A stretch of 32,515 nucleotides of DNA from Bacteroidales bacterium. GTDB taxonomy: Bacteria > Bacteroidota > Bacteroidia > Bacteroidales > FEN-979. The position numbers and the translations under genes were made by a program. This document shows, one piece after another, positions 4,742 to 16,717 of this stretch (positions are counted from its first letter, which is position 1; each line of letters opens with the position of its first letter). Where the stretch lies: NCBI GenBank assembly GCA_016783905.1, contig JADHVQ010000019.1, positions 1 to 32,515 on the forward strand, written 5' to 3'. Under the pieces are notes generated by a model. That model did not search any database. It saw nothing but the letters and a program-made list of their open reading frames with translations, and had not been told where the DNA came from.

Positions 4742-6664
4742 TTAATAGATGGGTCCCTCCCTGGAGACCAATGGTTTATATCGGATTGAAGGAGATGGAA
4801 TGTTAGGGCCCAGTTCTAACGATGGCCACTTCTCATCTACCAACCTGATCGTCTCATCATCCATTACAATCACATTGGGCCACTCCCGGCGAAAGTGATC
4901 CAGTTCAAGGTTTTTGCGTGTGGCATCGATAAAGAGGGTGCATATCTTCTCTCCATCCTTCTCCGGAAAGAAACAGTCCCGTACCGGATCAATGTTGTTG
5001 GCCCCCAACCAGACTACCGTTTGGAGATCCAATGGATCTACCTGCTCATCCACCAACACAACAAACCGTATCTGCTCAAGGAGCTCCTTCTCAATAAGAG
5101 TATTGGCTAATAGTCTGGCATGCTTTGGCAAGCTTTTCTTGAATGCAATGATCAACATATGAATTCCATCCCGGATCAGTGAATCGTTGATCGCTACTAC
5201 CTCCGGCAGTCGTGAAATCCATACATCCCGGTCCGATCCGGGATCACTTCGACTGGCTCCACCTGTTTTGCGTGTGGCATCAATACCGATCTTGCTACCC
5301 GAAGCATATTCGGTGCTCGAGTGGTCGAGGATGTCTACCGGTCCCCGGGAAAAGAGGATATGGTTCAGGGGATTTACGTTACCGGATATAACCCTGGCTA
5401 CCTCCAGGTAGTTGGTCAGATCCACATCGGGATCGGTCAACACCATGATCTTGTTGAACATCATCTGCCCGGCTCCCCACAGGGCGTTCATCACCTTTTC
5501 AGCCTGTCGGGGATACGTTTTCTCTATGCTGGCAAGCACGATGTTGTGGAAAACACCCTCCACGGGCATGTGCATATCTGTTAGCTCCGGCACCACGCCC
5601 ATCTTCAGTGGTTTGATAAAGATCCGCTCGGTGGCTTTCCCAATCCAGCCATCCTCCTGGGGAGGAATTCCCACGATGGTGGCCGGGTATACCGCTTCTT
5701 TCCGGTGGGTGACACAGGTAACATGAAACCTGGGAAAATAGTCTGCAAGTGAATAAAATCCTGTATGATCGCCAAAAGGCCCCTCCAGGATCAGCTCTTC
5801 GGCCGGATCCACATACCCCTCGATCACGAAATCGGCATCAGCCGGCACCTCCAGGTCATTGGTCAGGCATTTGACCAGTTCCACCTTCCGCTTCCGCAGA
5901 AAACCTGCGAGCAGGTACTCATCCAGGTTCTCCGGCAATGGCGCGGTAGCTACATAGGTATAAACCGGATCGCCGCCCAGGGTCACTGAAACAGGCATCC
6001 GTATGCCCAGCTTCTTATATTTCAGGTAGTGGTGCGCCGAGCCTTTGTGTAAATGCCAGTGCATGCCCGTCAGATCAGGGCCGAACACCTGCATGCGGTA
6101 CATGCCGAGGTTTCTGGAAGATGGTGCCGGGGTGCCGTGGTGCAATGGTGATTGCCAACTGCCCACTGCCAACTGCGGACTGATTGTATGCACACACGGT
6201 AAAGTAATAAACGGCCCGCCGTCGAATGGCCAGCAGGTCAGTACGGGAAGCTTTGTCAGGTCAGGTTTCTCCATGATCACCTCCTGGCAAGCGCCTCTCC
6301 CTTTCTTACGTTTTGGCAACCAGGAAGCCAGCTCCCGGAGCAAAGGGAGTGTCCGCATTTTATCCAGGAAACGTTGTTTGGGTGAGAGGAATGCCTGCAG
6401 GATCCCATCTATGTCACGACCGATATCATCGAGCTGGTCCACTCCTAAAGCCATGCATATCCGTTTCTCTGATCCCATGGCATTGATCAACACGGGAAAT
6501 CCGGTACCGGTATTCTCGAACAAGAGTGCCGGGCCGTTTTGCTTGGAGATCCGGTCGGTGATCTCGGTGATCTCCAGGTGTGGGGAGACAAACTCCTTTA
6601 CCCTTACCAGTTCTCCGGCCTTTTCCAGGGCTTCAATAAAGTGAGTGAGGTTTTTATAGGGCAT
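4742..6664 (-). CDS. UbiD-family prenylated-FMN decarboxylase
   Basis: 640 residues from the chosen ATG. UbiD enzymes use prenylated FMN to decarboxylate aromatic or unsaturated acids, best known in ubiquinone and menaquinone synthesis. Signatures are NLGMYRMQV with the cofactor-binding arginine (R190), HWHLHKGSAHHY, GGDPVYTYVATAPLPE, and EGPFGDHTGFYS (E294) with VTCVTHRKEAVYPATIVG. The frame stays open to 6718, but family similarity begins at MPYKNLTHFIEALEKAGELV, so I place the start at 6664; this leaves only 4 bases after the ccmE stop and implies co-translation. Just before NLGMYR, residues about 160-183 form a Pro/Ser/His-rich stretch (SPQLAVGSWQSPLHHGTPAP) that replaces a short linker in the family. 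The DNA of this stretch is a short-period repeat array seen elsewhere in the window. The true substrate (a quinone precursor or another acid) is not decidable here. Confidence 0.88.
   Translation of the reverse strand: MPYKNLTHFIEALEKAGELVRVKEFVSPHLEITEITDRISKQNGPALLFENTGTGFPVLINAMGSEKRICMALGVDQLDDIGRDIDGILQAFLSPKQRFLDKMRTLPLLRELASWLPKRKKGRGACQEVIMEKPDLTKLPVLTCWPFDGGPFITLPCVHTISPQLAVGSWQSPLHHGTPAPSSRNLGMYRMQVFGPDLTGMHWHLHKGSAHHYLKYKKLGIRMPVSVTLGGDPVYTYVATAPLPENLDEYLLAGFLRKRKVELVKCLTNDLEVPADADFVIEGYVDPAEELILEGPFGDHTGFYSLADYFPRFHVTCVTHRKEAVYPATIVGIPPQEDGWIGKATERIFIKPLKMGVVPELTDMHMPVEGVFHNIVLASIEKTYPRQAEKVMNALWGAGQMMFNKIMVLTDPDVDLTNYLEVARVISGNVNPLNHILFSRGPVDILDHSSTEYASGSKIGIDATRKTGGASRSDPGSDRDVWISRLPEVVAINDSLIRDGIHMLIIAFKKSLPKHARLLANTLIEKELLEQIRFVVLVDEQVDPLDLQTVVWLGANNIDPVRDCFFPEKDGEKICTLFIDATRKNLELDHFRREWPNVIVMDDETIRLVDEKWPSLELGPNIPSPSIRYKPLVSREGPIY
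6113..6187 (-). repeat. Short-period repeat inserted in frame in the UbiD gene
   Basis: On the coding strand the segment runs as CAGTTGG-like 7-base units (CAGTTGGCAGTGGGCAGTTG) followed by CACCACGGCACC-type 8-base units. The same two unit families occur at 7983-8034 and at 21806-21843. It encodes about 24 low-complexity residues without breaking the reading frame and lies directly before the conserved prFMN-site motif. Confidence 0.75.
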
Positions 6665-6668
6665 ACCT

Positions 6669-7085
6669 TTAAAAAGCACCAAACTGCTTCTCGCCGAACT
6701 TTTCGGGCTGATCCTCATCGTTGTATTTCGAGGGGCATTTGAGAAGCAGGCTCCTGGCTTCGAACACTGAATCGTTCTTCATGGAGCCAATGATGACCAC
6801 CTGCTCCGAGCGTTCGAAATCCTGGGGTTTGGCGTTGTGGTAGATCACCTGCCGCTCCGCACCCTCCTGATCCATCATATAGAAGATAAATTCGTTGGGA
6901 TTGTTCTCCGCATCATAAATCAGCTCTTTGTCCGGACTGAGTGTTCCGATCACATGGAACTCCTTGTTCGGTTGCTCAGAAGCCTGTGTAAAATTCACGT
7001 ATGTGCTGGAGTCGGAGATGGTGGAGATAACCACTCCCACCACAACCACTACCAGGATGATGATCACAATGTGGATTGTCTTCAT
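6669..7085 (-). CDS. ccmE: Cytochrome c maturation heme chaperone CcmE, CxxxY type
   Basis: 138 residues. One N-terminal membrane anchor (about residues 5-24, very Ile/Val-rich) is followed by a periplasmic OB-fold (VNFTQASEQPNKEFHVIGTL, then FYMMDQEGAERQVIYHNAKP, then VVIIGSMKNDSVFEARSLLL). CcmE takes heme from CcmC and hands it to the cytochrome ligase. The heme-attachment site of the classical family is His in HxxxY; here the aligned segment is KCPSKYND, giving C117-x3-Y121. This matches the variant group described for Desulfovibrio-type and archaeal Ccm systems, where Cys replaces His. The ATG overlaps the stop of the ccmD-like gene by 4 bases (ATGA). The acidic/Lys-rich tail after Y121 is short. 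Identification is firm; the mode of heme attachment is inferred from the variant family. Confidence 0.9.
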   Translation of the reverse strand: MKTIHIVIIILVVVVVGVVISTISDSSTYVNFTQASEQPNKEFHVIGTLSPDKELIYDAENNPNEFIFYMMDQEGAERQVIYHNAKPQDFERSEQVVIIGSMKNDSVFEARSLLLKCPSKYNDEDQPEKFGEKQFGAF

Positions 7086-7258
7086 ACGATCTCTCCTCTG
7101 TCATGGTGTATCCCTTCATGCTGTTTCTCTTCATGCTCCTTCAACTCTTTCTCGATCTTGCTGATCTTCCTGTCCATGACGAACAGGTAAACAAAGATGC
7201 CCACCAGGATCACTGCCAACACGGCAACTACGATGTATATTTTGCTGTCTGGTTCCAT
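7082..7258 (-). CDS. ccmD: Small CcmD-like membrane protein
   Basis: A 58-residue frame on the minus strand, starting MEPDSKIYIVVAVLAVILVG and ending HHDRGEIV. One hydrophobic segment (about residues 7-27) is followed by a basic and then Glu/Lys/His-rich cytoplasmic tail with coiled-coil character (DRKISKIEKELKEHEEKQ). This is the size and topology of CcmD, the small subunit that helps release holo-CcmE from the CcmABC complex. Its place between ccmC and ccmE is the canonical one, and its stop overlaps the ccmE start (ATGA). CcmD is poorly conserved in sequence, so the name rests on position, size and topology. Confidence 0.8.
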   Translation of the reverse strand: MEPDSKIYIVVAVLAVILVGIFVYLFVMDRKISKIEKELKEHEEKQHEGIHHDRGEIV

Positions 7259-7270
7259 ATCTAATTAATT

Positions 7271-7323
7271 CGTAAATTGTAAATCGTAAATCGTAATGCC
7301 TCATGCCTCATTCCTCATTCCCA
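7271..7323. repeat. Two 7-base tandem repeat blocks at the ccmC 3' end
   Basis: Block one (7271-7295) is made of CGTAAAT units: CGTAAAT, TGTAAAT, CGTAAAT, CGTA. Block two (7296-7323) reads ATGCCTC, ATGCCTC, ATTCCTC, ATTCCCA. The second block runs into the coding end of ccmC; on the minus strand it encodes the last residues (GMRNEA) and the stop. Confidence 0.75.
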
Positions 7324-7975
7324 ATTTTCTAATTCTGACTCTCAGGTTCATGATCCAGAAGCCAAGCAGGATCCATCCAACCATAGCAGGATAGAAAACG
7401 ATCCGGGTGGTGGCCGAGAGATCCAGGGCCATGATAGGGGCGCCGTCCTGGTCGGGATGAATCGTGGAGCCCGACATCCGTGGTAGTACAAGTACAAAGA
7501 CAATCCAAAGGATGAAGGCAAAGATGTTGAACACGGCCGATACTTTGGCCCGTTTGTGTGTGTCATCAATCGATCCCCGAAGCACCATGTAAGCGAGATA
7601 GATGAACATGCCAACCGCAGCGCCATCCAGCTTCGGGTCTCTGACCCAGAATGCTCCCCAGGTGTTCTTCGCCCAGATCATCCCGGTAATCAGTCCCAGG
7701 AACCCGAACAGAATCCCCACATTTGCGGCTTCCACCGCAACCACGTCTTCTTTCTCTCTGAATCCCCTCAGGTACCGGAGGCTGAAGATGAATGATGTGG
7801 TGAGCATTGCAAACATGCCGAACCACATGCCCACGTGGTAGAAGACATTCCGTAGCGATCCACTGATCATTGTCTCTGGTATCGGGACAATAAATCCATA
7901 AATCACCGCATAGAGCAGAAGCAGAAAACCAAGTAGCTTCCACCAGAGACCCTTGATCAGGTTTTCTTTTGTCAT
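7301..7975 (-). CDS. ccmC: Cytochrome c biogenesis heme-handling protein CcmC
   Basis: 224 residues with six predicted membrane segments (about 11-31, 46-67, 87-107, 121-136, 147-165, 190-208). The tryptophan-rich heme-handling motif is WGAFWVRDPKLDG (about residues 106-118), between hydrophobic helices 3 and 4 as in the CcmC/CcmF/CcsA superfamily; candidate axial histidines are in FYHVGMWF (H47) and STIHPDQDGAP. CcmC loads heme onto CcmE at the periplasmic face of the inner membrane. It follows ccmB after a gap of about 130 bases filled with short-period repeats, and precedes the ccmD-like gene. The last six residues come from a repeat block, so the native C-terminus may have been altered. 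At this length CcmC is preferred over a full-length CcmF/CcsA ligase. Confidence 0.9.
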   Translation of the reverse strand: MTKENLIKGLWWKLLGFLLLLYAVIYGFIVPIPETMISGSLRNVFYHVGMWFGMFAMLTTSFIFSLRYLRGFREKEDVVAVEAANVGILFGFLGLITGMIWAKNTWGAFWVRDPKLDGAAVGMFIYLAYMVLRGSIDDTHKRAKVSAVFNIFAFILWIVFVLVLPRMSGSTIHPDQDGAPIMALDLSATTRIVFYPAMVGWILLGFWIMNLRVRIRKLGMRNEA

Positions 7976-8103: not shown

Positions 8104-8763
8104 TTAATCCCGCCAAAGATACGGAAATAATAAATAGGCGAGGATGATCACGGCCAAATTGATGGTGAGGAGGATGACGAGAGGACCTGCGGTTCCGGGC
8201 CATTCAGGGCTGGTGAGGGCCAGCCTGGAGATCTTCATCAGGGTGAGCAGCAGAGGCAGGATGATGGGGAAGCTGAGGACCGCCATCAGGGAAAAGTTGT
8301 TGCTGGCACGCGAGGCGATGGCAGCCACCATGGTGAGGATGGAGGAGAGGCCGAAACTGCCCAGGATCAGGGCCAGGATAAACAACCCGGTATTGACCAC
8401 CTGGTTCCCCATCAGCAGCAGGAACATCCCAAAAGAGAGCAGGGAGAGGATCGCCATCAGCAGAAGGTTGTAAAGGATCTTGGAAAGTACCACCGCCTGC
8501 GGACTGGCAATCGTATAATAGTAGATATAGCGGGCAGGACTCTCCTGGACGAAGCTTTTGCTGATGCCATTCACCCCTACGAACAACAGAATGATCCAGA
8601 AGAGCGAGTTCCAGGTTTCGGTGGTGATTACCTCTTCAAAGGCAAGGTAGGTAACAAAAACGGTAGAAAGGAGATAAAGCAAAATGCCATTCAGAACGTA
8701 CTTCTGCTTTAACTCCAGTTTAATATCCTTGCCAATGAGGGCTTTGACCTCTTTTACTAACAT
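8104..8763 (-). CDS. ccmB: Heme exporter membrane subunit CcmB
   Basis: 219 residues from the ATG at 8763, with six hydrophobic segments (about 24-41, 50-67, 90-118, 125-150, 157-177, 191-212). The order KEVKALIGKDIKLELKQKY, then FVQESPARYIYYYTIASPQA, then SNNFSLMAVLSFPIILPLLL is characteristic of the CcmB family. CcmB pairs with the CcmA ATPase in the ABC complex that drives release of holo-CcmE. The frame extends 12 codons upstream to a TTG, but a TATTTTTG promoter box lies inside that extension, so the ATG is the better start. No ccmA is present in the window; in many Bacteroidota it lies elsewhere. This is the first gene of the ccmB-ccmC-ccmD-ccmE-ubiD run. Confidence 0.87.
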   Translation of the reverse strand: MLVKEVKALIGKDIKLELKQKYVLNGILLYLLSTVFVTYLAFEEVITTETWNSLFWIILLFVGVNGISKSFVQESPARYIYYYTIASPQAVVLSKILYNLLLMAILSLLSFGMFLLLMGNQVVNTGLFILALILGSFGLSSILTMVAAIASRASNNFSLMAVLSFPIILPLLLTLMKISRLALTSPEWPGTAGPLVILLTINLAVIILAYLLFPYLWRD

Positions 8764-8781
8764 ACTTCGTCTTTGCTTCGG

Positions 8782-8789
8782 CAAAAATA
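8782..8789 (-). promoter_or_regulatory. -7 promoter box of the ccm operon
   Basis: The minus strand reads TATTTTTG, a TAnnTTTG match, 18 bases before the ccmB ATG. It implies a short leader and decides in favour of the ATG start over the upstream TTG. Confidence 0.5.
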
Positions 8790-8809
8790 CAAAGAACAAA
8801 GTATATGTA

Positions 8810-10666
8810 CTACTCTACGATCATCTTCTTCGTCACCTTCCCGTTGTTGAAGGTTACCGTGTAGAAGTAGATTCCGGGAGTGAGCCCTTTTGTGTTGACG
8901 GTAAAATAGTAGTTTCCAGCAGTGCAGTTTCCTTTAGAAATGACCTCCACCTGCTGTCCCATCAGGTTAGTCACCTCCAGGCCCAGCGTCCCGGGCTGCG
9001 TCAGGTTCACACTAACAGTGGTGTAGCCGGCCGCCGGGTTCGGGAAGTTCTGGGATACGTGGAAGCTTTGTTTCTGCTCTTTTTCTGTTCCAACCGGGAA
9101 GAGAATATCCATCTTTGACGGCTTCATGAACCTGATGTTGTTATCTCCGATAGCCACCTGGCCCTGGGCCCCCTGTGCGCCGTTGAGAGATACGCCGGCG
9201 TAATCATCTTCCTGGAAAACCAGGTAGAGATAGTCGTCGGTGTTCCAGGAAACACTGGGGTAAACACATTCACTCCAATTATATTGAATGAAGTCGCTAG
9301 TGAGATCAATCAGGCTGGTGGTCCATGAAGCCCCGTAATCGCTGGATCCCCGTGCATAAATGTGACGCAGAAGATAGTCGTCGGGATCTGGATTCATCGT
9401 CACTCCCGACCACATCACAAACACGAAGTCATCATCATCAACGGTAATGGTGGGTTGGCTGGTCATGGAGTTATAATACCAGGCAATATGGGTCGGATCT
9501 ACATTATACACATTGGTATCGGTCACCCAGCCAATCAGGTTACCGCTGGCCAGCAGCTCGTCCCTGTCCAGGACTTCCGGAAGCTGAGGCATATCCTCAT
9601 TCCAGTATAAGACTCCGTCTGTCTGTGGAGCCCATTGTTTTACACCTGCATCGTTTGCGGCAGATATCATCATTCCGGTAGCCACATGTGCTTTCCCGTA
9701 TTTGTCGAGAGCCAGCGCAACCGTGCCATCAGGAGCGTAAAAGTCATCCACGGTTCCGGTGGTCGGAGTTGTATTCCACTGACTGGGCCAGGCAACAATT
9801 TTTTCCCAGTCCAGTCCATTATTATAGGATTTCATGATGGCCAGATCCATCCAGGGATCACAGAAGGCAAAAGCCAGCGTATCGCCTCTGGGTTGTGCCC
9901 AGCCATACATATCGGCAGTAAAGCCGAGGTAATCAGCGGAGGTCATCCCTGGGATTACCTCGTGCTGGATATCCCAGGTAACGCCACCATCCATGGAACG
10001 ATAATAGAGCAGGGCATAAGGTTCCAGTCCCTGATATGATGTATAGGTTGTGGCGATAACATGAACATACATATTATCCGGACCGTTGGTGACCACGCGT
10101 GGCCAGGATATGTCAACGGCTCCTGCCGGGCCGGGCAGGATGGCCTCAGTCCAGTCCCCTGTTCCTTTCGTAGCCCTTCTCATAATGAAAAGCCCGTCAA
10201 GCATATGGTGAGTAACCACAATTTCGCCGTTGGGCCCCCAGGGGGCATAGGATGGCCAGCCCGATTTGGAGGATTCAATTCGTGCCGAGGGTTGCGGCCC
10301 CCAGGCAGTGCCATCGTAAAAGTTGGTTCCTGTCCCCCGATCAGTAAAAGCATCGGTATGCGACATCATGGTGACTGCTCCAACGGTTCCATCCGTGAAA
10401 AGATGGATCCTGTTTTCACTGGAGGCATTGGATTGCAGATCGTACCGGGTGATCATCAATACGGGATCATCCAATACAGCCTTGGTGACGACAGTTGGAT
10501 TAACCGGCAACTGGCCGATTCCGTTCTCTCCCTTCTGGTTCAGAATGGGTTTCTCTACTTTGAATCGTTTCGCCTGTTCCCGCGCCCCCGATGAGAGCTG
10601 AGCCTGCAATCCGCCTGTCAGAAGCAGAAAGCTTAATAGAACAGATAAAAGTGTAATTTTTTTCAT
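8810..10666 (-). CDS. T9SS-sorted secreted protein with Asp-box-like motifs (paralogue 1)
   Basis: 618 residues. A signal peptide (MKKITLLSVLLSFLLLTGGLQAQ) precedes a large extracellular region. BNR/Asp-box-like motifs occur in YRSMDGGVTWD, KSYNNGLDWE and GSSDYGASWT, spaced as in a sialidase-like beta-propeller. Other blocks are TDRGTGTNFYDGTAWGPQPS, GWPSYAPWGPNGEIVVTHH and WNEDMPQLPE. The end is a T9SS type A sorting domain (QNFPNPAAGYTTVSVNLTQP, then GLTPGIYFYTVTF, then KKMIVE). The blocks DRGTG.N.YDG.AW.PQPSARIE, GWPSYAP.G.NGEIVV.H and WNEDMP.LPE recur in the next two genes, so the three are tandem duplicates. I see no sialidase catalytic residues (for example the RIP/FRIP Arg) that I can place, so an enzymatic role is not claimed; a binding or surface-structure role is equally possible. 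Confidence 0.8.
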   Translation of the reverse strand: MKKITLLSVLLSFLLLTGGLQAQLSSGAREQAKRFKVEKPILNQKGENGIGQLPVNPTVVTKAVLDDPVLMITRYDLQSNASSENRIHLFTDGTVGAVTMMSHTDAFTDRGTGTNFYDGTAWGPQPSARIESSKSGWPSYAPWGPNGEIVVTHHMLDGLFIMRRATKGTGDWTEAILPGPAGAVDISWPRVVTNGPDNMYVHVIATTYTSYQGLEPYALLYYRSMDGGVTWDIQHEVIPGMTSADYLGFTADMYGWAQPRGDTLAFAFCDPWMDLAIMKSYNNGLDWEKIVAWPSQWNTTPTTGTVDDFYAPDGTVALALDKYGKAHVATGMMISAANDAGVKQWAPQTDGVLYWNEDMPQLPEVLDRDELLASGNLIGWVTDTNVYNVDPTHIAWYYNSMTSQPTITVDDDDFVFVMWSGVTMNPDPDDYLLRHIYARGSSDYGASWTTSLIDLTSDFIQYNWSECVYPSVSWNTDDYLYLVFQEDDYAGVSLNGAQGAQGQVAIGDNNIRFMKPSKMDILFPVGTEKEQKQSFHVSQNFPNPAAGYTTVSVNLTQPGTLGLEVTNLMGQQVEVISKGNCTAGNYYFTVNTKGLTPGIYFYTVTFNNGKVTKKMIVE

Positions 10667-10685
10667 GGTTTTTAGTTTAATTATA

Positions 10686-10693
10686 CAAACTTA
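10686..10693 (-). promoter_or_regulatory. -7 promoter box of T9SS paralogue 1
   Basis: The minus strand reads TAAGTTTG, a TAnnTTTG match, 19 bases before the start codon. It suggests this copy is transcribed separately although only 39 bases separate it from the neighbouring paralogue. Confidence 0.45.
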
Positions 10694-10705
10694 GTGTATC
10701 TGCGA

Positions 10706-12559
10706 TTATTCCACGATCATTTTCTTTGTTATCGAATGACCGTTTACCTGTACTGTATAGAAATAGATGCCCGGTTTGAAATACGATACATCTATGATGA
10801 ACTCATTTGGACCTGGGCCGGTTCTCCCTTTGCTGGTTTCCAGGATCTTTTGTCCTGTTAAGGAGCAAATCTCGAGTGCCAGATTTCCGGGCTGTGACAT
10901 GTAAACGTTTATTGTAGTTGTTTCGCGGGCCGGATTGGGATAATTCTGCGAAACCCGGAGGTTGTCATTTGTCGCTTCATCAACACCAATCGGATAGAAT
11001 AGGGCTTTGTCTCTCGTCAGTACAGTCTGGTTGTTTTGTGTGATGGACACCTGTCCCTGGAATCCCTGGGAGCCGTAAAACTCCAGTCCGGCCTCCTCAT
11101 CATCCTGCATAATGAGGAACAGGTCTGTGGAACTCATTTTGGCAACATAGGGGAAGACACACTCACTCCAGGTATAGAGAAAATCATCGGTCAGCCCAAT
11201 GATCTCCTGCCAGGTTACACCACCGTCGAAAGAGGCCGTACCATACAGGTGTCGCAGCATGTAGTTGTAAATATCGGGCAGGGTGGTTACCTGGTCCCAG
11301 ATACAAAAGATATCACCGGCATCATCAATGATTAAATTCGGATGGCTGGTCATTGAGTTAAAATAATAGGCAAGCGAATCTGCTGGTTTTTCCCATACCA
11401 GGGGATCGGTCACCCAGCCAATAAGGTTTCCGTTTGCATAAAGGGAATCCCAGTTCATCATTTCGGGCAATGCCGGCATGTCCTCATTCCAGTATACTAC
11501 CCCATCCGTAAATGGATACCAGTACTTAAGACCGGCCTCATCTCCGCTGGCACGCTGTAATCCAAATACTACGTATGCATTTCCGGAGTTATCCAGGGCA
11601 ACCGAACAGGTTCCATCCGGACAGAAAAAGGCCCCTGTGGTATCTCCTCCGGCCCACATAGGAAAGGGGCAGGGCCAAATCATTATTTTCGTCCATATAT
11701 CGCCGTTATCGGTCGATTTCATGATGAATTGATCTAACCAATTATCACCGGTGGTAAAACATAGTGTGTCCCCAAGAGGTTCAGCCCAGGAATAAGAATC
11801 AGCGGCAAAGCCCAGATATTCGGCAGAGGTCATTCCGTCAAGCAGCTGCCAGCCATCCCAGTTTGTTCCGCCATCCAGGGAACGGTTATAAACGAGAGCG
11901 CCGTCCAGGTCGTTCCACACCACCCCTCCGTTACCGGTAGGTGCTGTCATACAGATGATGTGGATGTTCATGTGATCGGGGCCGTTGGTAATCATCCTTG
12001 GCCATAACATCCCGCTGGCGCCTGCTGGTGGATATAGCTCAGTTTGTGTCCAGGATCCGGTACCTTTCGTCTCCCGGGTGCTGATGATCAGAGGCGTTGT
12101 CCCACTCTGGTGCGCCACAACAATCTCACCGTTGGCACCATAGGGGGCATAGGAGGGCCAGCCGGTCCTGACAGTTTCAATCCGGGCTGAGGGTTGCGGG
12201 TCCCAGGCAGAGCCGTCATAATGGTTGTACCCGGTTCCTCTGTCGGTAAAGGTATTCTGGTGCGCCATGGTGGCTATGGCTCCCATGTTTCCGTCACCGG
12301 GATAGTAGTAGAGCCGGTTCTCCACCGATGAGTTCGTTTGGAGATCATATACAGATATCATGGTAACGGCATCATCCAGGGTAGCTTTGGGGGAGACCGT
12401 TGCATTGGGATTTTGCTGACCGATCAGGGTGCCATCGCCCTGCACCATGGTCTGAGCTGATTTTACACCCCAGTTCGGGCTGTTCAGGTGGCTTTTCACC
12501 TGGGCAACCATACTGAATGTCAGGAAAGTTGCCGTTACAAAACATAGAACTCTTTTCAT
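10706..12559 (-). CDS. T9SS-sorted secreted protein with Asp-box-like motifs (paralogue 2)
   Basis: 617 residues with a signal peptide ending at SMVAQ. It parallels its neighbours throughout: TDRGTGYNHYDGSAWDPQPS, TGWPSYAPYGANGEIVVAHQ, YNRSLDGGTNWDGW, GMTSAEYLGFAADSYSWAEP, MKSTDNGDIWTK, WNEDMPALPE, YNYMLRHLYGTASFDGGVTW. The Asp-box pattern (S-x-D-x-G-x-x-W) is seen three times, consistent with a propeller. The C-terminal sorting domain is QNYPNPARETTTINVYMSQP, then FKPGIYFYTVQVN, ending KKMIVE like both neighbours. It is closer to the 12714-14579 copy (shared NRSLDGG, MKSTDNGD, PTGNGG.VWND.DGAL) than to the 8810-10666 copy. The function is unknown; surface display or release through T9SS is the supported part. 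Confidence 0.8.
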   Translation of the reverse strand: MKRVLCFVTATFLTFSMVAQVKSHLNSPNWGVKSAQTMVQGDGTLIGQQNPNATVSPKATLDDAVTMISVYDLQTNSSVENRLYYYPGDGNMGAIATMAHQNTFTDRGTGYNHYDGSAWDPQPSARIETVRTGWPSYAPYGANGEIVVAHQSGTTPLIISTRETKGTGSWTQTELYPPAGASGMLWPRMITNGPDHMNIHIICMTAPTGNGGVVWNDLDGALVYNRSLDGGTNWDGWQLLDGMTSAEYLGFAADSYSWAEPLGDTLCFTTGDNWLDQFIMKSTDNGDIWTKIMIWPCPFPMWAGGDTTGAFFCPDGTCSVALDNSGNAYVVFGLQRASGDEAGLKYWYPFTDGVVYWNEDMPALPEMMNWDSLYANGNLIGWVTDPLVWEKPADSLAYYFNSMTSHPNLIIDDAGDIFCIWDQVTTLPDIYNYMLRHLYGTASFDGGVTWQEIIGLTDDFLYTWSECVFPYVAKMSSTDLFLIMQDDEEAGLEFYGSQGFQGQVSITQNNQTVLTRDKALFYPIGVDEATNDNLRVSQNYPNPARETTTINVYMSQPGNLALEICSLTGQKILETSKGRTGPGPNEFIIDVSYFKPGIYFYTVQVNGHSITKKMIVE

Positions 12560-12636
12560 GTGTCTAATTTTTCGATAAAAATAGAAAAAAAAGCTTCTTA
12601 TTCAAAATCAATCAATAAATGAAATAAAGATCATAG

Positions 12637-12670
12637 AAAAAGAGACTGCCTGTATAACCAGACAGTCTCT
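12637..12670 (-). terminator. Rho-independent terminator after T9SS paralogue 3
   Basis: A 12-base stem with one mismatch (12641-12652 pairing with 12659-12670, outer arms AGAGACTG/CAGTCTCT) has a 6-base loop. On the minus strand it is followed by a run of five T. It lies 44 bases downstream of the 12714 stop. Confidence 0.75.
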
Positions 12671-12713
12671 TCATAAAATGGTCCCGGATGACCAGGAAAT
12701 GTTGATTCCCGGA

Positions 12714-14579
12714 TTATTCCACAATCATTCTTTTGGTGATGGATTGGTTATCCACAGTTACAGTATAAAAGTAGATCCCGGCAGGAAGACCGGAACCGTC
12801 GATGCTGAACTGATGGCTGCCAGCATGAACAGCTCCCTTATTGAGGTTCATCACCTGCTGTCCAATCACATTGTGGAGGGTCATGGAGAGGTTACCCGGT
12901 TGTGTGAGTCTGACATGGATCACCGAGCGTCCGGTTACCGGATTGGGAGAGTTTTGTGCTACTGTAAAGGTTTCCGCCGGTTTATCATTGACTCCCACAC
13001 CCCACTGAATAATATCAGCCTTGGCAATCTCCATACAGGTGATGTTGTTGTTAGTGATCTCCATCTGTCCCTGGTAACCTGAATTACTGCTTTGAAGATA
13101 ATTCCCGGCCAGATCATCATCCTGGTCGATCAAATAGATCATATCAGTCGTTTGGTTTGCTACTGATGTAAAAACAAACTCTGTCCACTGTTGAATAACG
13201 TCGCCGGTAACATCAACAATGGTATCCCGCCAGGTGGCTCCACCATCCACCGATGCCCGGGCATAGATATGACGAAAGAAGAAGCCGTAGGGGTCTTCAT
13301 TTTCAGTCATACTCGACCAAAAGGCAAATACCTGGTCATAATCATCCACAACCAGGGCCGGCATGCTGCTCATTGAATTGTAATAAAAAGCATAATGAGA
13401 GATATCCTCATTGAATATACTTGTATCCTGCACCCAGCCAATGTAGTTTCCATGGGCGTCTAGGGTATCAGGATTCAGATCCTGGGGAAGTTCAGGCATA
13501 TCTTCATTCCAGTAGATCAGGCCATCCATGTTGATGGTCCAGTAGGTAGCTCCGCCTATGTCTCCAAATGAATATTGCAAACCAAACAGGACATGAACTT
13601 TGCCATCCGGTCCGATAGCTGCAGCAGAGCAACCATCAGAACTATAAAAGTGTCCGTCTGTTGAATCCACACCGGTCCAAAGATCATAGGGACAATCCCA
13701 GATGATTGTTTTGGTCCAGGTATCCCCATTGTCTGTCGATTTCATGATAAACTGGTCGTTGAAGCTATCGCCAACAACAAAGGCAAGGGTTTCGCCCCTG
13801 GGTCGTGCCCATGCATAGGCATCACCGCCAAATTTAAGATATTCGGCTGAAGTCATACCGTCCATCTGCACCCATCCATCCCAGGTGTCACCCCCATCCA
13901 GGGAGCGGTTGTAAATGAGGGCTCCGTCCATGTCATTCCACACAGTACCACCATTGCCCGTAGGGGATGTCAGTGCAAAGATATGTACATTCATGTGGTC
14001 AGTACCATTGGTCACCATGCGGCACCAGAGCAGCCCGGCGGCATCAACGGGTCCAAACAGTTCCGTTTGGGTCCAGTCACCAGTACCACGGGTGTCTCTT
14101 CTGTTAATGTACAATGGTGTTGTGGCGGATGAGTGTGCTACAACAATTTCACCATTGGGTCCGAGAGGAGCGTAAGCAGGCCAACCCGTTCTGTTGGCCT
14201 CAATCCCGGCGGTAGGTTGAGGGCCCCAGGCTGTACCGTCATAGTAATTGTAACCGGTTCCTCTTGTAGTATAGGTATTGTCATGTGAGAAGGTCGCTAC
14301 ACCAGCCATTGCCCCGTCATCATACCGGTAAAAACGTTGTTGCATGGCGGCGTTTGTTTGCAGGTCATACAAAGTCATCATGATGGCCACATCTTCCAGT
14401 GTGGCATCGGAAGCAACCGTTGTGTTGGGTGTTTGTAATCCCACTACCTGACCGTCAATCTGAGCGGCAGGTTTCAGGGATTGCACATCGTTTTTAGGAT
14501 GATTCAGAAATGGCTTAATCTGAGCCATGGCTGAAAAAGCAAAGCCTGCAACGATGAATAAAAGTAGAATTCTTTTCAT
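12714..14579 (-). CDS. T9SS-sorted secreted protein with Asp-box-like motifs (paralogue 3)
   Basis: 621 residues from the ATG at 14579, where a proper signal peptide begins (MKRILLLFIVAGFAFSAMAQ). The open frame extends 15 codons further upstream, but that part is not signal-like and comes close to the promoter box, so it is excluded. The layout matches its two tandem relatives: TTRGTGYNYYDGTAWGPQPT, TGWPAYAPLGPNGEIVVAHS, YNRSLDGGDTWDGW, MKSTDNGDTWTK, YWNEDMPELPQ, RASVDGGATWRD, then a T9SS type A sorting domain (QNSPNPVTGRSVIHVRLTQP, LPAGIYFYTV, KRMIVE). Three Asp-box motifs are seen. It has its own promoter box upstream and a strong terminator downstream, so it is likely monocistronic. Function unknown. 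Confidence 0.8.
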   Translation of the reverse strand: MKRILLLFIVAGFAFSAMAQIKPFLNHPKNDVQSLKPAAQIDGQVVGLQTPNTTVASDATLEDVAIMMTLYDLQTNAAMQQRFYRYDDGAMAGVATFSHDNTYTTRGTGYNYYDGTAWGPQPTAGIEANRTGWPAYAPLGPNGEIVVAHSSATTPLYINRRDTRGTGDWTQTELFGPVDAAGLLWCRMVTNGTDHMNVHIFALTSPTGNGGTVWNDMDGALIYNRSLDGGDTWDGWVQMDGMTSAEYLKFGGDAYAWARPRGETLAFVVGDSFNDQFIMKSTDNGDTWTKTIIWDCPYDLWTGVDSTDGHFYSSDGCSAAAIGPDGKVHVLFGLQYSFGDIGGATYWTINMDGLIYWNEDMPELPQDLNPDTLDAHGNYIGWVQDTSIFNEDISHYAFYYNSMSSMPALVVDDYDQVFAFWSSMTENEDPYGFFFRHIYARASVDGGATWRDTIVDVTGDVIQQWTEFVFTSVANQTTDMIYLIDQDDDLAGNYLQSSNSGYQGQMEITNNNITCMEIAKADIIQWGVGVNDKPAETFTVAQNSPNPVTGRSVIHVRLTQPGNLSMTLHNVIGQQVMNLNKGAVHAGSHQFSIDGSGLPAGIYFYTVTVDNQSITKRMIVE

Positions 14580-14621
14580 GGGTGTTGGTTTTAAAGGGTG
14601 AAACATTAATGAATCCGGGTA

Positions 14622-14629
14622 CAAATATA
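14622..14629 (-). promoter_or_regulatory. -7 promoter box of T9SS paralogue 3
   Basis: The minus strand reads TATATTTG, matching TAnnTTTG, 42 bases before the chosen ATG at 14579. Its position supports the shorter start, since a frame starting at 14624 would overlap it. Confidence 0.45.
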
Positions 14630-14650
14630 TAAAAAAATGAGAAAACAGGT

Positions 14651-14680
14651 AAAAAAAGAGCCCGGAAGTTTTCCGGGCTC
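14651..14680 (-). terminator. Rho-independent terminator after the fourth T9SS-sorted gene
   Basis: A perfect 10-base GC-rich stem (GAGCCCGGAA at 14658-14667 with TTCCGGGCTC at 14671-14680) and a 3-base loop are followed on the minus strand by seven T. It ends transcription of the 14705-16717 gene and isolates it from paralogue 3. Confidence 0.88.
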
Positions 14681-14704
14681 TTCATTCAAATTATGGAAGT
14701 TCTA

Positions 14705-16717
14705 TTATTCAACCACCACTTTTCGGGTATATTTCTCGCCGTTTATTTGCAGGGTGGCAAAATAGACACCGGGATTCACATGGCTGGCATCGAATGTGAA
14801 TTCCTGGATTCCGGCAGTTACATATCCTTCGTCAAGGGTCATCACGGTTTGTCCGAGCATGTTGGTCAGGCTGATCTCAACATTTCCGTTCCGGATCATG
14901 TTCACTTTCATCACGGCGATGTCGGTCACCGGATTCGGATAGAGAGAGATCTCCAGTTCAGCTTTCCTGTTGTCCACAGCAATCGGGAATGGCACGGAGC
15001 AATCCGGACGGTCAATGGTATAGTCTCCGGGAGCGTAACTGAAATCAGGGATATACTTGAAAGTAACCATTGCAGCAGGATCGTTAGGATCAGAGAGCAA
15101 TTCGGTGACGATGGGAATGAATTCGAACTCATCCACGGTGAAGGTGTAATAAGATGTCGCTTCAAAATAGGCCTGTGATGTAACATCCGACAGGAACGTC
15201 ACATTGTTCGGCTGGTCGTCACCGTTCACACTGGTAATCATATTTGTAACCAGGTCGAATCCACGGGCAAACACATCCGGGTTGATGTTATCGGCCCCAC
15301 CATCCTGGGTATCGAGCCAGGTGAAAAAGACTTTGTCGCCGGCATAGTTGACAGCGGCATTCACACGGTTGTCTTCGGTAAGGTCTCCGAACGTACCGCG
15401 GAAAGTCCAGGGATGTCCCAGAAGCACAGCGCACCAGGTTGCTCCTCTGTCGGGAGAATAGATGTCAAACACGGCTAAGATGCTGTCAAGTCCCGTGCTG
15501 ATGGCATATCCGTCGGCAGCGATGCCAACTACTACGCCGAGGTGTGGGTTCCCCCAGGCATCCACAACCAGGTCGCAGTCAAAGGCAGTGGTGTAGGGGA
15601 TCTCATCACGGGTTGGGAGAGGAGGATTGTAGAGTTGCGCAATGCGATAGTCGCTCAGGAAGTTTTTAATGGGATCGAGCCCATCTGTTCCATCAAGTTG
15701 TACACTGATCGGATCATTCCAGTTCATCCCGTAGTCGTTGGAGTAGAACATCACCGGGAAGAACCGGTCCTGAATACCACCTACCGGAGGCAGATCACCT
15801 GTGTTGGCCAGGGAGGCGATCCAAACATGCTGTCCGTTTGGAGAAGCAGCCACACGCTCATTGGCAGGGCGCTGGTTGTCCAGGGTCGGATGCTCAATCA
15901 GGCTCATGGTGTATTCATAATCCATGTCAGTTGTATTCCATACACCGGTGTTGAGGATGATGTTGCCCTGATATACCAAACCACTTACCCAGTCCTGGTC
16001 GAGGTCGGTAACCAGGATCTTGCCGTCACCCAGCAGCATCATCCCATCGGGGATGTAGGTATAGGGCGGAGGATCGTACCAGTAAAGATGCTTGGTTGTG
16101 TCGGCAAGATCGCTTAACTTGCCCCGTCCCCAGCTGAGACCACCCCAGGTGGTAGCGGTACTGGAGAGGTTCGGTGCGAAAAATACGCAGTAGGATTCAT
16201 CCACACCGTCGGCCGTGGGATCATAGATCACAGCCTGCGGGTAACGGGCGGCATCCAGGTAATAGTCTCCCCCGGCATTGAGGGTGGCGTTATACACCTC
16301 GTTATTGACCGTCCAGTCACCGGCAGTCATCCCTTTGTTCACACCCAGATCATAGGCGAGGTATCCGGAAAGACTGGGAGGGGTGGTACCGGGTCCCATC
16401 CGGTGGAAATTGGTCACAGCGCCCAGTATCGGGTCTGCCCAAACCAGGGTTTTCTGACCTCCGGCATAGCCGTAACCGTAAGCATTGGCTGCGGTACCGA
16501 TGGTGATCACACTTACTACATCCACGCCGTCACCGTTGACCATAACCGGCCCCGGAGTAACCGTTGGAGCATTGGCGCTGACAGGCTCCACACCAACTGC
16601 CTCAACCGAAACTTTGTAGAGCGGTTTTACTGAATTTTTCAGCTGAAAAGTTTGAGCTGATACAGCGAGGCCGAGAATGAGAGCCACGCTGAAGAGTAGA
16701 ATTTTCTTCATTTTCAA
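14705..16717 (-). CDS. T9SS-sorted secreted protein, divergent fourth member
   Basis: 670 residues; a signal peptide (KKILLFSVALILGLAVSAQ) starts at Met1 or Met3. The extracellular region has propeller-like motifs, FYSNDYGMNWNDP and IYSPDRGATWCAV, and a segment RVAASPNGQHVWIASLAN. The C-terminal T9SS type A domain reads SLYPNPVTDIAVMKVNMIRN, then EISLTNMLGQTVMTLDEGYV, then VNPGVYFATLQIN, ending RKVVVE. It belongs to the same general class as the three genes beside it but shares little beyond the sorting domain and Asp-box-like motifs, so it is either an old duplicate or an independent arrival. A well-formed promoter (TTG, 20-base spacer, TATTTTTG) and a strong terminator make it a single-gene unit. 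Function unknown. Confidence 0.78.
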   Translation of the reverse strand: MKMKKILLFSVALILGLAVSAQTFQLKNSVKPLYKVSVEAVGVEPVSANAPTVTPGPVMVNGDGVDVVSVITIGTAANAYGYGYAGGQKTLVWADPILGAVTNFHRMGPGTTPPSLSGYLAYDLGVNKGMTAGDWTVNNEVYNATLNAGGDYYLDAARYPQAVIYDPTADGVDESYCVFFAPNLSSTATTWGGLSWGRGKLSDLADTTKHLYWYDPPPYTYIPDGMMLLGDGKILVTDLDQDWVSGLVYQGNIILNTGVWNTTDMDYEYTMSLIEHPTLDNQRPANERVAASPNGQHVWIASLANTGDLPPVGGIQDRFFPVMFYSNDYGMNWNDPISVQLDGTDGLDPIKNFLSDYRIAQLYNPPLPTRDEIPYTTAFDCDLVVDAWGNPHLGVVVGIAADGYAISTGLDSILAVFDIYSPDRGATWCAVLLGHPWTFRGTFGDLTEDNRVNAAVNYAGDKVFFTWLDTQDGGADNINPDVFARGFDLVTNMITSVNGDDQPNNVTFLSDVTSQAYFEATSYYTFTVDEFEFIPIVTELLSDPNDPAAMVTFKYIPDFSYAPGDYTIDRPDCSVPFPIAVDNRKAELEISLYPNPVTDIAVMKVNMIRNGNVEISLTNMLGQTVMTLDEGYVTAGIQEFTFDASHVNPGVYFATLQINGEKYTRKVVVE

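Follow-up and report, generated by a model that had tools for sequence, protein, structure and literature searches.

The ccmBCDE genes of the window, i.e., the whole stretch of 32,515 nucleotides of Bacteroidales DNA analysed here, very probably belong to a cytochrome c maturation pathway of the System I* type, in which CcmABCD would load heme onto Cys117 of CcmE and CcmF would transfer it with neither CcmH nor a dedicated CcmG involved. System I* pathways, which feature a CcmE protein with a heme-site Cys and often lack CcmH, have been known since 2006 (Allen) and were found to work for Desulfovibrio in 2010 (Goddard), as related in the available text of PMC3601427. The genome from which the window derives (hereafter, own genome) consists of 2.47 Mb in 128 contigs and is 88.96% complete, so that a gene scored as absent could sit in a gap.

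The relevant features of the window are the following.
8104..8799, minus strand: ccmB, membrane subunit of the heme ABC transporter, 231 aa from a TTG codon, start uncertain (PF03379, 42.4 bits, cut-off 24.9).
7301..7975, minus strand: ccmC, 224 aa, containing the segment WAKNTWGAFWVRD, which we take to be of the WWD type (PF01578, 54.1 bits, cut-off 29.9).
7082..7258, minus strand: ccmD of the alternative CcmD family, 58 aa (TIGR04391, 36.3 bits, cut-off 24; PF20077, 46.1 bits, cut-off 23.5).
6669..7085, minus strand: ccmE, Cys-type heme chaperone, 138 aa from an ATG start (PF03100, 53.7 bits, cut-off 24.6).
6735..6737, minus strand (read 6737-6735): TGC codon of C117, the aligned heme-attachment position.
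4742..6718, minus strand: UbiD-family menaquinone biosynthesis decarboxylase gene, directly downstream of ccmE (TIGR03701, 589 bits, cut-off 495.9).

Genes are arranged on the minus strand in the order ccmB, ccmC, ccmD, ccmE and ubiD. The CcmC protein aligns with CcmC 7F02 (E=9e-7), and CcmB matches the TIGR01190 model at E=0.07 only. ccmD and ccmE overlap by 4 bases. The nominal overlap of 50 bases between ccmE and the decarboxylase gene disappears if the latter starts at the second Met (residue 19); the decarboxylase is a neighbour and lies outside the Ccm machinery. Among 80 named related loci, many of which end at contig ends, the gene found downstream of ccmE is ubiD in 13 and ccmF in 39. 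No ccmA, ccmF, ccmG or ccmH gene was recognized by eye among the ORFs of the window, and no match of the own genome to the ccmA, CcmF and CcmH models falls on the window contig. Both the ORF list and the model searches agree with the gene set reported in a preliminary description of this DNA, which listed ccmB, C, D and E without ccmA, F, G or H. Upstream of ccmB, the interval 8810-16717 (minus strand) encodes four consecutive large secreted-looking proteins of 617-670 aa, three of which are visibly alike; by eye, they share a C-terminal segment resembling a type IX secretion sorting domain.

In CcmE, the KCPSKY motif spans residues 116-121, with C117 set in the context LLLKCPSKY. The protein scores above the gathering threshold of PF03100, and features an OB-fold and a probable N-terminal anchor. 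The curated NCBIfam CcmE models score far below their cut-offs (best 35.5 bits, cut-off 126), which marks the protein as divergent. In phmmer alignments, C117 is placed on the Cys of 2KCT, the CcmE of Desulfovibrio vulgaris (E=0.00076); with 1J6Q, the Shewanella CcmE, it pairs with the His of KHDENY (E=0.89, weak when taken alone). The letters that follow KCP in 2KCT look, by eye, like a purification tag, and the native SKY is not comparable at that point. The same columns were recovered in a MAFFT alignment including 179 relatives, and the assignment of Cys117 as the aligned heme residue, proposed earlier, is upheld.

An AlphaFold2 model of CcmE, built from a 20-row alignment (mean pLDDT 81), features an N-terminal helix (residues 3-25), which is probably the membrane anchor, and a last strand at residues 107-116. 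Since the strand ends at residue 116, C117 is predicted to come straight after it. The best fold match of the model in the PDB is CcmE 1J6Q, and chain E of 8CE8, 2KCT and 1SR3 match too. RPA, Ten1 and other OB-folds score about as high as CcmE structures, and the fold search by itself thus points to an OB-fold only.

The Cys form is not confined to the window. CcmE matches were found in 35 of 61 genomes (the own genome and 60 relatives) and in 264 of the 392 genomes of a phylum sample. We read 179 CcmE ORFs of Bacteroidota, picked by the Pfam CcmE model with no selection for Cys; they come from 30 of the 35 places in the 61 genomes and from 149 of 263 other genomes of the phylum sample, and 119 places were left out (5 of the 61-genome set and 114 weaker-scoring genomes). 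Every one of them carries Cys at the heme site, as KCPSKY (n=176), KCPSRY (n=2) or QCPSKY (n=1), and the HxxxY motif of classical System I is found neither in these nor in the window CcmE. Identity to the window CcmE goes down to 25% (median 33%), and Y29, F68, D72, P87, V97, G100, C117, P118, S119 and Y121 are invariant. Stop-to-stop frames contain one Cys only in 146 of the 179 cases. The 80 named loci were kept out of this count because one of the two search patterns used (LLKCPSKY) itself contains the Cys; they are mostly from Bacteroidota, and the two or three that bear other group names are probably misnamed assemblies. The Cys form looks to be the usual CcmE type in Bacteroidota, fixed there as far as the ORFs were read. 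The replacement of HxxxY by CxxxY noted in the preliminary description is real, but it is not unusual for the host.

CcmF is encoded elsewhere. The own genome has one CcmF match, a 682-aa protein specified by a lone gene located between opposite-strand genes on contig C49. It aligns with the Thermus thermophilus CcmF 6ZMQ (E=3e-39); the aligned parts include GGFWAWDPVENSSLVPW and, around it, two segments with His residues presumed to bind heme. CcmC and CcmF are the only two Cytochrom_C_asm matches in the own genome, and CcmB, CcmC and CcmF, all expected in System I*, are present. Each of the 35 CcmE-bearing genomes has a CcmF_C match, over the cut-off in 34 and under it in one (G010).

Potential substrates are also encoded. 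Three PF13442 cytochrome c matches exceed the cut-off, on contigs C122 and C50. In addition, a frame of 350 aa bearing seven CXXCH motifs occurs around C122:23634 (L315), near a monoheme cytochrome c; given this frame, a CcmH-free system would need to serve multiheme cytochromes. At C50:88910-89125 (L316), a cytochrome c match is broken by one in-frame TAG and directly precedes a second, uninterrupted match.

The CcmA protein is divergent. The curated ccmA model yields 25 matches in the own genome, none over the cut-off, and exceeds it in 15 of the 392 phylum genomes; as CcmE is matched in 264 of them, a survey relying on the ccmA model would probably call the pathway incomplete. A screen based on the SGG signature of ATPases missed a ccmA gene adjoining ccmB. 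Relaxing the signature led to the [FY]SSGMxQR motif, and the latter to a candidate in the own genome.
Contig C78, 20238-20858 (L304, 5239-5859), minus strand: putative ccmA, 206-aa ATPase with YSSGMKQR, assigned by grouping and synteny.

The best NCBIfam family of the C78 ATPase is ccmA (100.8 bits, cut-off 131.6). In one other family, ccmABCDE are consecutive in three genomes, with ccmF following in two of the three stretches, and the ccmA genes of these runs feature [FY]SSGMKQR in place of SGG. Ten of the 12 best over-cut-off ccmA loci similarly have [FY]SSGMxQR, and two (L292 and L293) have the ordinary SGG. A tree of 40 ATPases unites all 17 proteins with [FY]SSGMxQR in one group (support 100/99), which joins the C78 ATPase to 16 others, three of them from ccmABCDE runs; the 13 other own-genome ATPases in the tree fall outside. 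An earlier tree was distorted by long branches. L131, L121, L081, L083, L086, L292 (one of the over-cut-off matches devoid of the SSGM signature) and L135 (absent from both trees) were left out of the final tree, which retains three long rows from the own genome. The stretches that were read contain 17 of the 25 own-genome matches, 14 of these being the ATPases in the tree; the C78 gene is the only own-genome ATPase read that has the SSGM signature, which the three frames read outside the tree lack (252 aa on C20, 336 aa on C73, 735 aa on C29). The remaining 8 matches, long frames on C33, C91, C122 and C3, stayed outside both tree and reading.

Read by eye, the genes preceding the C78 ccmA are presumably lpxD, lpxC/fabZ and lpxA, with efp nearby. 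Synteny connects this cluster with ccmE in other Bacteroidales. In L137 and L146, an lpxD-lpxC/fabZ-lpxA-ccmA cluster adjoins ccmBCDE in opposite orientation, with ccmA less than 2 kb from ccmE; in L149, lpxA-ccmA is likewise less than 2 kb away from ccmE. In the stretches of L116 and L117, no ccmA was found, though an lpxD-like gene and efp adjoin ccmE. By grouping and synteny, we take the C78 ATPase to be CcmA, its score being below the curated cut-off, and the CcmA component of System I* is regarded as present on the same grounds. The sub-cut-off scores of the curated model had raised the idea that ccmA is missing from the genome; this was dropped upon finding the SSGM-type gene. ABC genes located beside ccmE in Saprospiraceae, Schleiferiaceae and Chitinophaga were also considered as ccmA candidates and rejected, since they carry the SGG signature and lie outside the SSGM group. 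The preliminary description had envisaged a system that may be reduced or split. The split is real: ccmBCDE reside in the window, ccmF on C49 and the putative ccmA on C78.

The set is also reduced. Model searches detected CcmH in none of the 61 genomes (the own genome and 60 relatives), which makes the loss of this gene, and of this gene only, through an assembly gap unlikely. The lack of CcmH, usual but not obligatory in System I*, sets the window system apart from classical System I, in which the protein is present. CcmH is rare in the Bacteroidota sample, with matches in 12 of 392 genomes, 5 of which are over the cut-off. Two of the 12 belong to the class of the window genome; both are sub-cut-off and cover the C-terminal part of the model only. 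Nine CcmH-like loci from other families of the phylum (L156-L164) were read. Eight encode a CxCxxC motif, and the other, from G450, is a short frame that has CxxC instead. By eye, seven of the eight CxCxxC segments (L156, L157 and L159-L164, in which L161 and L162 come from two genomes and have identical letters) are preceded by a zinc ribbon at the N terminus and by a hydrophobic stretch, and such proteins possibly represent a different CcmH type. L165, G107 and G415 are outside the nine loci read.

No dsbE/CcmG match exceeds the TIGR00385 cut-off in any of the 392 genomes, the own genome included. Weaker matches to this model occur in all 392; those of the own genome are five thioredoxin-like proteins (best E 9.5e-14), which leaves room for a CcmG-like role. 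ResB is not matched in the own genome and is matched in 28 of the 61 genomes. A System II (ResB/CcsA) pathway in place of Ccm was rejected, as the 88.96% complete own genome has no ResB/Ccs1 match. Thus, with no CcmH, no over-cut-off CcmG and no ResB, the suggestion of a reduced Ccm set holds.

By homology, CcmA, as the ATPase, would act with CcmB, CcmC and CcmD so that the membrane-anchored CcmE is loaded with heme at Cys117 on the periplasmic side, and CcmA and CcmD would account for release. Heme would be held by Cys117 most likely as a thioether, with the nearby Tyr121 as a possible axial ligand. In the available text of PMC3601427, the Cys-CcmE of Desulfovibrio is described as binding heme covalently; for the D. 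vulgaris CcmE, noncovalent binding in vitro is reported (PMC3884852, available text), which makes a covalent heme-Cys bond uncertain. Holo-CcmE would then pass its heme to CcmF, which alone would attach it to CXXCH apocytochromes, with neither CcmH nor a dedicated CcmG.

Other readings of the same data were weighed. It is most improbable that the system is a classical System I in which the Cys is incidental and heme is carried by another His of CcmE, or by a second, His-type CcmE. The incompleteness of the genome speaks for this reading, but 6669-7085 is the sole CcmE match detected in the 88.96% complete assembly. The three His residues of the window CcmE (H5, H44 and H83) lie away from the heme site in poorly conserved columns, where the commonest residue reaches 44%, 37% and 32%, respectively, over the 179 ORFs. 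C117 and Y121, by contrast, never vary in proteins that share as little as 25% identity, and the single Cys of most frames (146/179) argues against a structural disulfide. Neither a second HxxxY-type CcmE nor a His taking over the site, the two findings that the preliminary description had named as contrary to its proposal, was encountered. It is very improbable, too, that ccmBCDE serve heme export or some heme protein other than cytochrome c. This would fit the lack of linkage of ccmA and ccmF to ccmBCDE in the own genome, but CcmF_C is matched in every one of the 35 CcmE genomes, ccmF follows ccmE in about half of the named loci (39/80), and the own genome encodes c-type cytochromes and no System II.

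A functionally complete system, in which the roles of CcmH and CcmG are filled by non-orthologous proteins, such as thioredoxin-like proteins or the CcmH-like fusions found elsewhere in the phylum, is unlikely, albeit with a better claim than the preceding readings. In its favour, the dsbE model matches five thioredoxin-like proteins of the own genome, and nine CcmH-like proteins occur in other families (eight with CxCxxC, one with CxxC). Against it, neither the own genome nor any of the 60 relatives has a CcmH match, and the ccmABCEF genes of Methanosarcina were enough in M. barkeri, where the host might have supplied a replacement for CcmH (PMC9084895, available text). A System I* pathway built on Cys117 remains the reading that we prefer.

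On a wider scale, we consider it rather likely that the Ccm system of Bacteroidota is of the Cys type and mostly CcmH-free, that the Cys has long been fixed, that CcmF by itself is the synthase for multiheme cytochromes as well, and that, in part of the phylum, CcmA has moved from the ccm operon to the lpx (lipid A) cluster. In that case, Bacteroidota would be a major and largely unexplored home of System I*. The apparent fixation of Cys in the phylum, the rarity of CcmH and the location of ccmA in the lpx cluster add to what is known of System I*, and the scale of its occurrence seems new. The natural replacement of His by Cys allows one to ask why the heme bond of CcmE is covalent and whether CcmH is necessary, and the pairing of Cys-CcmE with a rare CcmH throughout the phylum would offer many more systems for such tests. 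Some Bacteroidota can be cultured and are amenable to laboratory genetics.

The best-ranked matches listed in literature searches included no work dealing with the CcmE or the Ccm system of Bacteroidota; the founding surveys may already include the phylum. System I* is ascribed to archaea, delta-proteobacteria, chloroflexi and firmicutes in PMC3601427, and no word beginning with "bacteroid" occurs in the available text of either this paper or PMC9084895. In the accessible part of PMC10620991, ccm genes are named for Methanosarcina, Peptococcaceae and Chloroflexi, not for the Bacteroidetes of that study. According to the available text of PMC3601427, CPSKY is found in 25 of 36 variant CcmEs of bacterial genomes, about one third of bacteria with Cys-CcmE keep CcmH, and the switch between His and Cys is tolerated by neither system; moreover, E. 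coli with a Desulfovibrio ccm operon devoid of CcmH and CcmG produced holocytochrome c. The likeness to Desulfovibrio-type systems suggested at the outset stands, but a Cys-CcmE alone does not imply the loss of CcmH, since about one third of such bacteria retain it. In archaea, CcmH was found in a single species, according to the available text of PMC4429474. The CcmE of M. acetivorans needs C120, and CcmABCEF is the working set, which sufficed in M. barkeri (PMC9084895, available text).

Compared with the Escherichia coli classical System I (HxxxY CcmE and CcmABCDEFGH), the window system has the same CcmABCD set, the CcmE OB-fold and CcmF, but features Cys instead of His, no CcmH match and no dsbE/CcmG over the cut-off. 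The CcmABCEF set of M. acetivorans, as described in the available text of PMC9084895, similarly combines a CxxxY CcmE with the lack of CcmH and the use of CcmF as the synthase; here, in contrast, a CcmD of the alternative family is encoded, and one chain makes up CcmF in place of the separate F1 and F2. With System I*, the window system shares the Cys that replaces the heme His within CPSKY, the retention of CcmF and the absence of CcmH; for CcmG, absent or undetected in System I*, the own genome has only matches below the cut-off. It differs in the distribution of the genes over three contigs, in the divergent CcmA encoded beside lpxA, and in a host outside the groups named in the available text of PMC3601427. 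Judged by those features that gave a clear outcome, the window system is a System I*, i.e., an already known variant.
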